A stretch of DNA of 64,000 bases, from positions 1 through 64,000 of the forward strand of contig CALUTL010000001.1 in NCBI GenBank assembly GCA_944323655.1. Direction: 5' to 3'. This document shows positions 10-53,405 of the stretch, in pieces. The DNA is from Candidatus Gastranaerophilales bacterium. GTDB taxonomy: Bacteria > Cyanobacteriota > Vampirovibrionia > Gastranaerophilales > Gastranaerophilaceae. The notes below the pieces were generated by a model, which worked only from the letters and a program-made list of their open reading frames with translations, made no database searches and was not told where the DNA came from. Numbering within the stretch: position 1 is the stretch's first letter; every line of letters starts with the position of its first letter. A program made the translations under genes and the position numbers.

Positions 10-90
10 GTCATTCTGAGCCGAAGGCGAAGAATCCCATAAAACAGAGGGGTCATCCTGAGCGTCAGCGAAGGATCCCCCTAAAAACAA
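10..90. repeat. Short palindromic REP-like repeats
   Basis: Two related units lie side by side, at about 10-40 and 52-82. Each has the pattern TCATyCTGAG, a short spacer, then CGAAGrATCC. The pattern can fold because CTGAG-type and GGATyC-type ends are partly complementary. Sequences of this type are widespread intergenic repeats in many bacterial genomes. No open frame of note crosses them. The exact boundaries are uncertain because the window starts close by. Confidence 0.55.
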
Positions 91-94
91 GAAC

Positions 95-181
95 AAACCA
101 TTTTGTCATGCTGAGTTTATCTCAGCATCTCAACGAGATTCTGAAACAAGTTCAGAATGACAGTGGAAGACAAAATGGTTT
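95..181. repeat. 87-bp inverted-repeat element (MITE/REP-like)
   Basis: The element is bounded by a perfect 13-bp inverted repeat: AAACCATTTTGTC at 95-107 and GACAAAATGGTTT at 169-181. Inside are two further hairpins: ATGCTGAG/CTCAGCAT at 108-128 and ATTCTGAA/TTCAGAAT at 138-158. The whole can form a branched cruciform or RNA. It has no coding capacity. Non-autonomous mobile element or composite REP are both possible; no target duplication is obvious. Confidence 0.6.
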
Positions 182-234
182 AGTGAGAAACCTTTAACAT
201 TTGCATAATATAAGTTACAAAAATGCAAATTGCC

Positions 235-1258: not shown

Positions 1259-2479
1259 ATGAAAAAATTATTTGCATTTATTGCACTGTTCGCCGTAAGT
1301 TTTGGAATAGGTTTTGCTTTAAGCCGCCTAACCCCAAAAGAGGTACTTGCTATCGGTAAAGACAAAACAAATACGGATTTTGTTCTTGTCCCGACTATGC
1401 AATCCAAAACCGAACAGCAAAACCGGGCATGGGTAGGAACATTCCAGCTTGTATGGAATGATTTTCAGGACAATATTGTAAAAGGTCCGGTAAAATTTGT
1501 AGATGATGAAAAAAATGTATATGCTAAACAATTAAACAAACAAAAATTTAAATCTGATATGATCAGCGCAAACTCTTATTATAAGACTTTTGGTCTTGTT
1601 TCTCCTGATTTGAAAACTCAAATTGAAACAGCTTTAATGCAAAAATTCAACGAGACAAGCGAGATTTTGGATGCTTTAGACTGGACTCCGGCTCCGAACA
1701 AATATTTGTTTTATGCAATGTTAAAGAAAAACTTCAAATTTATAACAGCATTTGACAAGCTTGAACCTGCAAGATTTTCAAAATTTAGCGGAAAAGTTGA
1801 CTATTTCGGAATAGGACCAAAATCTGATTCAAAACTTGATGATATGGTAAGAATTCTGTTTTATAATTCCAGAGATGATTTTGCTGTTTCAATCAAGACC
1901 GAAGGTAAAGATATTGTCTATCTGTATAGAACAGACGATAACAAAACATTCGACAAATTGTATAAAGATATGATTTACAAAGAACGTGGATACATGGGCT
2001 GGCATGAATTTTTACAGAAAGACGAATTGAGAGTCCCGAATTTGAATTTATATAAAATGCAAAAGTATCCGGAATTAACCCAGAAACAAATAAAGGGTAC
2101 TGATTTAATGATAGATGATGCTATACAGACTTTGCAATTCACAATGAATAACGAAGGGGTCAAATTAAAAAGCGAAGCTGCTATGATTGCTAAAATGTCA
2201 GCTTTGGTTCCTGAAAGAAAACAATCTCCGAGAAAATGTTATCTTGATGATACTTTTGTTGTATTTTTACAGGAATATGACCGAAAAGCGCCGTATTTTG
2301 CCATTAGAGTTTACGACTTAAATTTGATTAATTCGACAGGTAAGCCTATTGTTGAAGAGCAGGCAGAAGATGCTTCGTCAACGGAAGTTGAAAAAATGCA
2401 AAACTCAGAAAATCCAAAAGCTTCTGACTCGCATGTTGAAAACAGCCAACAACCAGAAAACACATCAGATAACAAATAA
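1259..2479 (+). CDS. Hypothetical membrane-anchored or secreted protein
   Basis: I place the start at the ATG at 1259, which has an AAAGGAG site 6-7 bases upstream; a GTG at 1232 would add nine polar residues and has no ribosome site. The 406-residue product starts with KK and a hydrophobic stretch (about residues 4-22), consistent with an uncleaved signal anchor or signal peptide, followed by a large mixed alpha/beta region without recognised motifs and an acidic, Ser/Asn/Gln-rich tail from about residue 365. Probably envelope-located. It may be the last gene of the BlaI-like operon. Function unknown. Confidence 0.65.
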   Translation: MKKLFAFIALFAVSFGIGFALSRLTPKEVLAIGKDKTNTDFVLVPTMQSKTEQQNRAWVGTFQLVWNDFQDNIVKGPVKFVDDEKNVYAKQLNKQKFKSDMISANSYYKTFGLVSPDLKTQIETALMQKFNETSEILDALDWTPAPNKYLFYAMLKKNFKFITAFDKLEPARFSKFSGKVDYFGIGPKSDSKLDDMVRILFYNSRDDFAVSIKTEGKDIVYLYRTDDNKTFDKLYKDMIYKERGYMGWHEFLQKDELRVPNLNLYKMQKYPELTQKQIKGTDLMIDDAIQTLQFTMNNEGVKLKSEAAMIAKMSALVPERKQSPRKCYLDDTFVVFLQEYDRKAPYFAIRVYDLNLINSTGKPIVEEQAEDASSTEVEKMQNSENPKASDSHVENSQQPENTSDNK

Positions 2480-2490
2480 AAGCATAAATG

Positions 2491-2510
2491 GGCGCCGCTT
2501 CCGCGGCGCC
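2491..2510 (+). terminator. GC-rich hairpin after the envelope gene
   Basis: A perfect 8-bp stem (GGCGCCGC/GCGGCGCC) with a TTCC loop lies 12 bases after the stop at 2479. The T-tract is short (TT then AAACAT), so it may terminate weakly or protect the mRNA 3' end. Its high GC content stands out in this AT-rich region. Confidence 0.5.
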
Positions 2511-2595
2511 TTAAACATAACATATTTAACCATTGAAAAAACAAAACGCAAATGATAAAATATAAGTGTAAATAAAAGGAAAGGAGTCTGAAAGT

Positions 2596-3322
2596 ATGAT
2601 AGGACAAGGATTTAAGGGGGGGGGGGGGCACCCCAAATAAGCTTCTGAAAGGGTTTACGTTGGCGGAGGTATTGATAACCCTTGGTGTATTGGGTATTGT
2701 AATAGCGATGACACTTCCGACATTAGTTCAAAAGCATAAAGAGCGTGTATTAGTTGCAAAGCTTCAAAAATTTTACTCGACAATGAATCAGGCAATAATG
2801 CTGGCCGAAAATGTATATGGAGAAAGAGAAACCTGGTTTGAAGACATCTATGGTGTGGATGAAGACGGAAATTCTCTTAATCAGGTCTGGTTTGACAGAT
2901 ATTTAAGGAAATATTTGAACATATTAAAAGAAGAAGATCTCAAAAAAGGTGATGGTAAAATCTTATACTATCTTACAGATGGCGGAGCATTTATGAATGC
3001 AGGTAGCAACGGACGTGATTGGTTCTTTTTTCCCGGAAATCCAAAACGTTGTTTAGAAAAATATAAGTATAATGTTCAAAAAATAGCGGGAATATGCGGA
3101 TTTCCGTTTTATTACAATCCTGCAAATACATCAAAAAACCTGCGGGCAAGAGAATTTGCGCCATATGGTATGAACGCCTGGGATGGTAAAGAATCATCTC
3201 TTTACGATCATTCTAGTTTTGGATGTAGTGAAAATTCAGAATGGGGAGGTTTCTGCACATTGTTAATCCAATTTAACGGCTGGAAAATTCCTAAAGATTA
3301 CCCGTTTAAAATATGGTTTTAA
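2596..3322 (+). CDS. Prepilin-like protein, out of frame at a G tract
   Basis: A type IV prepilin-like protein of roughly 230 residues. It carries the class III signal region GFTLAEVLITLGVLG followed by a hydrophobic helix and a soluble C-terminal domain with several Cys and a terminal NGWKIPKDYPF-type ending. The ATG at 2596 has an AAGGAG site 9 bases upstream, but a run of 13 G (2616-2628) puts it out of frame: translation gives MIGQGFKGGGGHPK and stops at 2638. One G fewer would join it to the prepilin frame as a Gly4-Thr-Pro leader. The prepilin frame itself is closed upstream by a TAG at 2600, leaving only weak internal TTG/CTG starts, for example TTG at 2660. Pre-pilins are cleaved after the Gly by PilD and anchored in the inner membrane or a pilus/T2SS fibre. 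Confidence 0.75.
2616..2628 (+). repeat. Poly-G tract (13 G) at the prepilin 5' end
   Basis: An uninterrupted run of 13 G followed by CACCCC lies between the start codon at 2596 and the prepilin cleavage region. Twelve G would restore the frame. Long G runs are rare in such AT-rich DNA and are classic contingency (slipped-strand) sites. Confidence 0.9.
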
Positions 3323-3327
3323 ATTTT

Positions 3328-3364
3328 AAATAAAGGCGGCTCGTGCAGACGCCTTTATTTTTTA
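3328..3364 (+). terminator. Intrinsic terminator after the prepilin gene
   Basis: AAATAAAGGCG at 3328-3338 pairs perfectly with CGCCTTTATTT at 3350-3360 and is followed by more T residues. It ends the prepilin transcript 5 bases after its stop codon. Confidence 0.8.
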
Positions 3365-3367
3365 TTA

Positions 3368-3396
3368 TTGACTAACCGTGGGAAGAATAATATAAT
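3368..3396 (+). promoter_or_regulatory. radA promoter, start codon at the expected TSS
   Basis: TTGACT at 3368-3373, exactly 17 bases, then a perfect TATAAT at 3391-3396. The radA ATG is at 3403, only 6 bases downstream, so the message probably begins at or within a base of the start codon (leaderless). There is no Shine-Dalgarno sequence in AATCAGCTT. Confidence 0.75.
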
Positions 3397-3402
3397 CAGC
3401 TT

Positions 3403-4776
3403 ATGGCAAAGTTGAAGTCAAAATGGATTTGTACAGAATGCGGGTATGAAACAGCAGGATACCTTGGAAAATGTCCTGAATGTGGAAGCTGGGGAACTTT
3501 AACGGAAGAAGTTCAATTTACCGGAAAAACTCCGAATGCTGTGGCAAATGAGTTTATAAACACCGAAAAGCCAAAGCTGTTAAAAGATATTGAAGTCGAT
3601 GAGAGTGTCAGGTTGCGGACTAATATATCAGAATTTGACAGAATTTTAGGCGGTGGCTTTGTTGAAGGATCTCTTGTCCTTCTTGCTGGCGATCCTGGAA
3701 TCGGAAAATCTACAATAACACTTCAAACCTGCGGAGAAATTTGCAAAAACGGTAAAAAAGTTCTTTATGTTTCTGCAGAAGAAAGCGCAAATCAGCTTAA
3801 GCTCAGGGCAGACAGGCTCGGAATAAATTCCGGTCACCTCTATATTTATCCGCAGACAAATATGGAAAATATTAAAATCCAGATTGAAGAACTGATGCCG
3901 GATTTTGTTGTGATAGATAGTATTCAGGCAATTTATTCAAATAATGTAGCAAGCACTGCGGGCAGTGTTTCTCAAATTAGAGAGTGCTGTAATATATTGA
4001 TGCATATTGCAAAAAGCAAAAACATTACAACAGTTGTAATCGGCCATGTCACAAAAGAAGGAAGCATTGCAGGCCCGAAAGTTCTTGAACACATGGTTGA
4101 TACCGTAATTTATTTTGAAGGCGACAAGTATAAGTCTTACAGAATGCTCCGTTCTATGAAAAACCGTTTCGGAAACACATCAGAGGTCGGGATTTTTGAG
4201 ATGAACGCAGACGGGTTAAAATGTATTACAAACCCGAACGAACTGTTTTTAAACGAGCGTTCTCAAGGTTCTGTTCCGGGAAGCGCAATTATTGTAACAA
4301 ATGAAGGCACAAGACCTCTGCTGGTGGAAATTCAGGCTCTTGTCGGCACAACCCCTTACGCTGCCCCAAGACGTGTCACAAACGGAGTTGATTTAAGCCG
4401 ACTTCACCAAATTCTGGCGGTCTTGGAAAAGAGAATTGGACTTAACCTTTCAAAACAGGATGTTTATGTAAATGTTACAGGCGGAATTGAAGTTGACGAG
4501 CCAAGTGCTGATTTAGGAATTGCGATTGCCGTCGCCACCTGCGCAAGAGATGTCGTTGTAGACAGCCAAACCGTAATCATCGGTGAAATCGGGCTTTCAG
4601 GAGAAATTCATCCCGTAAATAATATCGAAAAACGACTTAACGAAGCGATAGCAACAGGGTTTAAAAAAGCGATTATTCCTTTTTCAAATGATGTTCCGGA
4701 AAATATCGGAAAAATTGAAATCGTAAAAGTCAAAAGGCTTATGGACGCAATCACAGCCTGCGTTTCACCGCAGTAA
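3403..4776 (+). CDS. DNA repair protein RadA/Sms
   Basis: 457 residues, the usual RadA length. Order: an N-terminal four-cysteine zinc finger (CTECGYETAGYLGKCPEC, residues about 10-27), a RecA-like ATPase with Walker A GDPGIGKST near residue 97, the RadA-specific KNRFG motif near residue 252, and a Lon-protease-like C-terminal domain. RadA is a branch-migration helicase that processes recombination intermediates in the cytoplasm. It appears to be transcribed alone from a strong promoter and translated as a leaderless message. The convergent gene on the other strand ends one base after its stop. Confidence 0.97.
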   Translation: MAKLKSKWICTECGYETAGYLGKCPECGSWGTLTEEVQFTGKTPNAVANEFINTEKPKLLKDIEVDESVRLRTNISEFDRILGGGFVEGSLVLLAGDPGIGKSTITLQTCGEICKNGKKVLYVSAEESANQLKLRADRLGINSGHLYIYPQTNMENIKIQIEELMPDFVVIDSIQAIYSNNVASTAGSVSQIRECCNILMHIAKSKNITTVVIGHVTKEGSIAGPKVLEHMVDTVIYFEGDKYKSYRMLRSMKNRFGNTSEVGIFEMNADGLKCITNPNELFLNERSQGSVPGSAIIVTNEGTRPLLVEIQALVGTTPYAAPRRVTNGVDLSRLHQILAVLEKRIGLNLSKQDVYVNVTGGIEVDEPSADLGIAIAVATCARDVVVDSQTVIIGEIGLSGEIHPVNNIEKRLNEAIATGFKKAIIPFSNDVPENIGKIEIVKVKRLMDAITACVSPQ

Positions 4777-52585: not shown

Positions 52586-53297
52586 CTATTGTAAAAGCCA
52601 TGTCGTATATAGGCAATGCCCACTAGGACACCAACGCCCTTTTTTCTCTATATCCTCCCAGGGTTTAATAACATTTGCTTCTGATACATAAAAACTACTT
52701 GCATTTCTACTGTCAGCAAAGCGCATAACAAATCGGTCTTGACCTAATCTGTTAGGACGTTTATCTCCGTTTACATCAACTAAAATCGGCCATTCATTAT
52801 TATTATATAAATACCACGCCATACCTGAATTATCTTTAAATGCATAACTTGTTTTAACACATCCCAACCAGTCAGGAGCACCAGATGACGGTTTTCCAGC
52901 TTGTCCTTCAGCACATACCCAGCATTCATCTGCATTATTATCAAAGCAAGTTTTTACAGCATTAAAATATTTAGATATAATTTTAAAATTTTTACCTGAT
53001 GCTGAAGTATATGCAGTTCCATCATCCCCATAACTTTCCGGCCTCATACTGATAAATTCGCCACTCTCCTGCATTCTTAAAAAAGCCTGTGAAAAAGCAG
53101 AATAAGCTTTCTTATATGCGACTTTCCACTCTTTTTCTTGATGTTTAGCAATCAATGACAGCAACGTCAGTGCCGCAACTACACCAATAATTCCAATCGT
53201 TATTAAAACTTCTGCTAATGTAAAACCGGTTTCTTTCCCTCTTAAGGAGCTATTCTCGGGTGCCCCCCCCCCCCTGTAATTCAATCATATCAAGCAT
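52586..53297 (-). CDS. Prepilin-like protein, out of frame at a G tract
   Basis: About 230 residues in the prepilin frame, with the class III signal region ETGFTLAEVLITIGIIG, a hydrophobic helix, and a soluble domain with Cys pairs (NADECWVCAEG). The ATG at 53297 has an AAGGAG site 6-7 bases upstream, and a second ATG in the same frame lies at 53288, but a run of 12 G on this strand (53274-53263) puts both out of frame: translation gives MLDMIELQGGGGTRE and a TAG. With 11 G it would read Gly3-Ala-Pro-Glu into the prepilin. In the prepilin frame a TGA at 53287-53285 leaves only a TTG at 53284, far from the ribosome site. Confidence 0.75.
53263..53274 (-). repeat. Poly-G tract (12 G on the minus strand)
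   Basis: Twelve C on the plus strand, read as G on the coding strand, followed by CACCC exactly as in the first prepilin gene. Eleven G would restore the frame. Confidence 0.9.
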
Positions 53298-53405
53298 TTC
53301 CAGCTCCTTATCTTTTCTATGCTACTATTTTATTATACCAACCCTTTTTATTTTTGACAAGTATTTAGATTTTATGCACGCACAAAAGCACTAACCAATC
53401 CTTGC

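Follow-up and report, generated by a model that had tools for sequence, protein, structure and literature searches.

The closest described systems are found in bacteria of other lineages. In the sortase-dependent pilus of Bifidobacterium breve, a tract of 10-12 G lies close to where a pilin gene begins, and mixed tract lengths were measured in the population (PMC9187656). Neisseria genomes are reported to possess on average 15-19 poly-G tracts in many kinds of genes, with modal lengths of 9-10 G, and repeats are given for only 23 of 607 alleles of pilS (PMC5953494). For C. jejuni, 18-39 phase-variable genes are described, with 81 in one isolate (PMC6321876). A termite-gut relative is described as possessing pilA, pilB, pilC, pilT, and pilD (PMC5877343), and a literature search, with subscription journals and preprints mostly outside it, brought up no study of tracts of this kind in the group.

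The locus described here lies in a window of 64,000 nucleotides (contig CALUTL010000001.1, positions 1 to 64,000) of a Candidatus Gastranaerophilales genome. It resembles the B. breve arrangement in its G tract near a pilin gene start, and the arrangement recurs at other loci of the same genome.

Results

Organization of the two tract-bearing genes

The features of both loci are compiled in Table 1. For gene A, a preliminary description had given a ribosome site and ATG, followed by 13 G and a prepilin frame lying one base out, with the ATG frame closing at a TAA; direct reading agrees with this exactly. The prepilin frame is blocked by a TAG (2600-2602) and then stays open until the stop at 3320-3322. 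Its sole start codon near the tract is a TTG at 2660, which sits within the FTLAE motif, such that a start there would lose the cleavage site; the earlier statement that this frame has no other credible start is borne out, and in the consensus the tract shifts the prepilin frame, itself intact, by one base. In gene B, the second case in the window, 12 G are situated between ribosome site and ATG and a prepilin frame that is likewise one base out. With 13 and 12 G near the start and in the reading frame, both tracts lie above the threshold for contingency genes of at least 9 G/C taken from PMC5953494, and in both it depends on the number of G whether the prepilin frame, intact in other respects, gets read.

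Table 1. Positions of the features of prepilin genes A and B and of the exchanged segment in the window
Feature	Position	Strand	Basis
Exchanged segment spanning gene A; ~99.8% identical to G005 contig C22 (L330/L331), flanks ~80%	1655..4352	.	
Shine-Dalgarno AAGGAG, prepilin gene A	2581..2586	+	sequence; start-scoring script
ATG start, gene A	2596..2598	+	sequence; start-scoring script
13-G tract, gene A; one base too long for prepilin frame	2616..2628	+	
TAA closing ATG frame of gene A at 13 G	2638..2640	+	sequence
Prepilin A past leader: Gly, then FTLAEVLITLG...; mature part 222 aa; C-terminal DUF6613	2651..3322	+	
Prepilin B past leader: Gly-FTLAEVLITIG...	52586..53227	-	PF07963; ORF
TAG closing ATG frame of gene B at 12 G	53250..53252	-	
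12-G tract, gene B; one base too long	53263..53274	-	
ATG start, gene B (first base 53297)	53295..53297	-	
Shine-Dalgarno, prepilin gene B	53304..53309	-	sequence; start-scoring script

Overlapping matches to 8 G number 11 in the window against 0.44 expected (0 of 100 shuffles reach 11); they represent two runs, i.e., the 13 G of gene A and the 12 G of gene B, both situated on the strand of positive GC skew. At the beginning of the window (10-190), several variants of an interspersed, partly palindromic repeat of the type GTCATnCTGAGC are found.

Both proteins exhibit the GF-T-L-x-E cleavage/methylation motif of type IV prepilins, followed by a hydrophobic helix, and in profile searches both are matched by PF07963 at or above the cut-off. 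For prepilin A, TIGR02532 also scores above the cut-off, and DUF6613 (PF20318, E 1.1e-18) is matched in the C-terminal part. The predicted structure of prepilin A (pLDDT 87) comprises a long first helix (3-55) and a beta head, as in pilin, but the matches in structural comparison are weak. Aligned to PAK pilin (1oqw) with VIA-align, the model reaches a best Z of 4.0 (rmsd 3.8 over 111 residues), with unrelated chains tied within 1. Foldseek with this model gave nothing significant (E 0.3 or worse), and a sequence search of the PDB gave no relevant match. The same genome contains one prepilin peptidase gene (PF01478) and a PilC-type assembly platform protein with two PF00482 domains in one frame of 409 aa.

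Tracts in the same genome and in related genomes

The genome (1.95 Mb in 33 contigs) contains nine runs of at least 8 G, eight of which are situated at prepilin gene starts. The sole run outside prepilins (L023; G000:C18:16144-16152) consists of 9 G in a Mur-ligase-like frame with a Gly-Met-Gly-Gly-Gly stretch; this frame and the prepilin on contig C17 were identified by reading the translations. The eight prepilin tracts divide into two that are in frame (C12, C17), five with an excess of one base (A, B, C11, C14, C30), and one in the -1 state (C3). Among the 30 N_methyl matches of the genome, an in-frame start with ribosome site is present in 22 of the 23 genes without a tract versus 1 of the 7 with one, a count that leaves out the TTG inside the motif of gene A.

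The preliminary description had considered a switch of one gene. The tract is as described there, but the phenomenon extends over the genome and the family: within the genus, the strict tract pattern occurs in 11 of 14 genomes (reversed-pattern controls: 0), and within the family the arrangement is found in 26 of 117 sampled genomes. An order-wide draw, the sample of which overlaps that of the family, yielded 41 of 117 genomes; outside the family, 2 of 22 genomes match the pattern, as script matches only. A scan of named-species genomes for at least 12 G returned 76 stretches, mostly from Candidatus Gastranaerophilales or Melainabacteria and some from untitled bins. Concerning other phyla, inspection of three scan matches, which bear the labels Coriobacteriales, Treponema, and Bacilli, showed the arrangement in none of them; among viral contigs only 4 chance-like matches were found. 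The contig binned as Bacilli (L223, CALVID010000031.1) does have 14 G a short distance before a long prepilin-like gene begins, but not within the coding frame.

Genome G034 contains 92 runs of at least 8 G and 91 N_methyl matches. Eighty of these runs were read, and 67 of them precede prepilins, including 7 that appear as runs of C on the coding strand. For the other 13 (among them C1:3037, C2:502, C2:94993, C2:126675, C2:139373, C3:19079, C9:39847, and C11:61105), no prepilin was found within 420 bases. The strand of the G run agrees with the local GC skew in 31 of the 36 runs having enough flank; some prepilin leaders of this genome (e.g., L311, L312, L316, L322, and L329) are poly-C, such that it is still the strand of positive skew that bears the G run. 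At L020, L103, L106, L107, and L109, the contig ends within a few hundred bases of the tract leader, such that assemblies may be interrupted at repeated leaders and the copy numbers are probably underestimates.

Consensus frame of the tracts

The set of 178 tracts, drawn from 34 genomes, comprises 31 in-frame tracts, 89 with one base too many, and 58 with one base too few. Shuffling the lengths within genus or genome gives an expectation of 42.6 in frame (P(<=31) = 0.003), in a test that, like the following ones, assumes independent tracts, though paralogues have leaders in common. In the genus of the window genome, 37 of 50 tracts are at +1, whereas permutation gives a mean of 19.7 and reached 37 in none of 5000 rounds; tracts at -1 are fewer than expected (4 versus 13.8). 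The tract length follows the geometry of the leader, being mostly 13 G where this is 0 mod 3, 12 G at 1, and 11 G at 2. Restricting the genus to one copy per distinct leader leaves +1 in 28 of 38 tracts versus 13.6. Pooling 31 tracts of other genera (without G034, G054, and loci added later) yields 2 in frame versus 9.8 expected.

Individual genomes differ from one another. In G034, 56 of 67 tracts have 10 G, with the same wrong frame (-1) in 56 of 67, and in G158 one wrong frame (+1) is found in 18 of 22; in G054 there is no depletion of the in-frame state (12 of 26, mixed frames), and in G079 4 of 8 tracts are in frame. The offset is thus held within the genus of the window genome, within G034, and within G158, differs between lineages, and is mixed in G054. 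The genus initially pointed to +1 as a universal frame (37 of 52 tracts), an idea rejected as a general rule on account of G034 and G054. An early stop in the observed wrong frame was also considered (85 versus 29 tracts) but dropped, the ratio being 11 to 10 by genome group.

Neutral switching should leave about one third of the tracts in frame, with lengths independent of the geometry; both the 31 of 178 and the dependence on geometry argue against it. The frame of the tracts is not neutral: the in-frame consensus is depleted, and in the genus the length tracks the geometry and thereby keeps the gene one base too long.

Concerning the composition of the sets, L071 and L084, which have no ribosome site with ATG, were left out of a set of 140 tracts, and L372, L377, L385, and L387, for the same reason, also out of the 178. 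C30 (motif FTMAE) and C17 (gene cut by the contig end) do not fit the motif of the script and lie outside both sets. Poly-C leaders are counted among the 80 runs read in G034 and not in the 178-tract frame set, to which this genome contributes 33 tracts.

Comparison with the sister species and among paralogues

Over its length, contig C22 of G005, a sister species, shares about 80% identity with the window, and in the segment spanning gene A the two are nearly identical. Within these ~2.7 kb there are 5 substitutions and 3 indel bases (2615, 2616, 2633), the latter all within 20 bases at the tract, such that the recently exchanged segment is altered in length only there. As judged from this distribution of identity, the segment is a recent recombinational exchange between the species, with apparent breakpoints inside both flanking genes. 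The allele is in frame in G005 and out of frame in the window, and the coding sequence of prepilin A shows no amino-acid change between them (dN 0, dS 0.008). That the near-identical copy of a sister species is in frame makes the G run probably an on/off switch. In G011, G034, and G054, tract length and frame also vary among paralogues whose leaders show no difference in the 30 bases upstream and the 18 downstream. Variation in length between near-identical copies, which is expected of contingency genes, is thus present both between the alleles of gene A and among paralogues with identical leaders. In the comparison of tract lengths in related genomes, as proposed in the preliminary description, lengths and frames vary, and the G005 allele is in frame.

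Shifts of phase between species are also found among orthologues (L010/L081, L093/L105, L014/L108), and the orthologues L017, L064, and L104 exhibit the same out-of-frame state in three species. Out of 27 orthologue-like pairs listed, four without computable dS are omitted; in 22 of the remaining 23, dN/dS ranges from 0.10 to 0.38, and the 23rd is gene A with its sister allele, where dN is zero. In 13 of these 22 pairs, neither copy is in frame in the consensus. Copies that are out of frame are, by these estimates, under purifying selection and not decaying, which argues against pseudogenes.

Complementarity within the leaders

In a number of leaders, the sequence at the ribosome site is complementary to the stretch just past the tract, e.g., AAGGAGCT and AGCTCCTT; such leaders are present in the genus of the window genome, in G034, G085 (L134), G093 (L131), and G007 (L062). 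Of 32 genomes, 23 exceed their shuffles in this complementarity (p 3e-4); outside the genus, 14 of 21 do so (p 0.009). Swapping the partners between genomes has little effect (5.59 versus 5.21, sd 0.19; other genera 5.48 versus 5.29). A hairpin sequestering the Shine-Dalgarno sequence, the loop of which would contain the ATG and the G run, is a possible interpretation, which we consider as a lead only.

Discussion

We consider that the tracts probably represent homopolymer phase variation of type IV prepilin-like genes, with the genes off in most cells and with selection on the consensus length. Gene A is a member of a large Gastranaerophilales family, in which the G tract is situated in the leader just past the start codon. 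Replication slippage at the tract would change the reading frame, such that the ATG would be joined to the prepilin only at tract lengths of one class modulo 3, and the prepilin peptidase should then remove the leader peptide that bears the tract. Because the glycines precede the cleavage site, all in-frame lengths should yield an identical mature protein. With most copies out of frame in most cells, usually by one base, a cell would produce just a few of its many pilins at any one time. Replication slippage as the cause, switching within the population, cleavage, and assembly into a fibre are inferred here from the genome sequences.

The on/off switch of the preliminary description is supported in so far as the sister allele is in frame, paralogues with identical leaders differ, and purifying selection is found; the consensus frame, however, is non-random and in the genus prefers +1, which had not been foreseen and which programmed slippage would explain too. 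The uniformity of the G034 tracts is narrower than fast free slippage would suggest, and the out-of-frame state common to L017, L064, and L104 in three species counts against free switching. For the meningococcus, short G tracts are described as possibly biased towards insertion (PMC4085013), and a bias of this type could favour the +1 frame.

The most serious alternative, although we regard it as clearly the less probable one, is programmed slippage, in which the off-by-one frame is the working state and the RNA polymerase (or the ribosome) slips on a stable tract, giving a small set amount of full-length prepilin. It would account for the +1 frame held in the genus (37 of 50 against a mean of 19.7) with its depleted -1 frame (4 versus 13.8), for the single wrong frames of G034 (56 of 67) and G158 (18 of 22), and for the purifying selection on copies that are out of frame. 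Lineages, however, hold different frames (+1 in the genus and G158 but -1 in G034, with G054 being mixed), the phase changes between orthologues, and gene A has a sister allele that is clearly in frame; the idea of an early stop, moreover, failed by genome (11 to 10). The in-frame allele, the phase shifts, and the lineage-specific frames count against a single fixed recoding; slippage of the RNA polymerase could serve either frame.

Errors of assembly or sequencing, by which true tracts would be in frame and the consensus wrong by one base, appear very unlikely. All data are draft assemblies, and for B. breve the G-tract lengths in databases were shown to differ from those measured in the population (PMC9187656); but errors would not track the geometry of the gene, nor would they add a base in one genus (+1) and remove one in another (-1), and the near-exclusive location of the tracts in prepilin leaders of the window genome would be left unexplained. 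Scarcely more plausible, and if anything less so, is a start at a prepilin-frame TTG between ribosome site and tract, which would make the frame of the tract irrelevant. A start codon in this frame before the motif is present in 23 of the 37 +1 tracts of the genus, mostly as a TTG of the shared leader, as in gene B, but none of the 23 is preceded by a ribosome site, the other 14 tracts lack any start codon, and gene A offers just the TTG within the motif. That the copies are dead and decaying, as the out-of-frame consensus of most of them might suggest, is the least probable of these readings, since the frames past the tract are mostly open over ~210-260 codons and dN/dS is 0.10-0.38 even including the 13 pairs with both copies out of frame.

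We raise only tentatively the further idea that the off-by-one state is itself a selected functional default, i.e., that a pilin family with tens of genes in each genome is kept precisely one base out, with tract length co-evolving with the geometry of the leader. If so, each cell would make rare or low amounts of each pilin by slippage of DNA or RNA, and the arrangement would constitute a stochastic system of pilin choice and not a simple on/off gene.

An uncultured gut lineage related to cyanobacteria may thus vary its surface fibres gene by gene through a homopolymer switch on the pilin subunits, with a putative switch tract preceding at least 67 prepilin genes in one genome. Situated in a peptide that should be removed, such a switch would leave the finished pilin unaffected by tract length. 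Gene callers would mis-annotate or miss the prepilin genes that bear tracts. The non-random frame makes a general question testable, namely whether a phase-variable locus is at neutral equilibrium, selected off, or read by slippage.

Comparison with known systems

The arrangement is similar to that of B. breve, also a gut commensal, in the G tract near the pilin start and in the different frames of secretion signal and pilin body; there, however, sortase pili with one tract per pilus cluster are concerned, whereas the Gastranaerophilales possess type IV prepilins with many tracts per genome, known from assemblies alone (compared with the B. breve system as presented in PMC9187656). With genes of bacteria that are expressed by transcriptional slippage, they have in common that homopolymer runs place a gene in two frames; the runs analysed in that study are of A and T, whereas those described here are of G and known from DNA alone (PMC1088944). 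In pilC of Neisseria, too, a type IV pilus gene contains a poly-G/C tract within its reading frame, but PilC is not a pilin subunit, whereas in the Gastranaerophilales the subunit genes themselves bear the tracts (Neisseria according to PMC5953494). Finally, Campylobacter likewise has poly-G tracts within reading frames; as described in PMC6321876, these belong to many surface-modifying genes, whereas those of the Gastranaerophilales belong almost entirely to one gene family.
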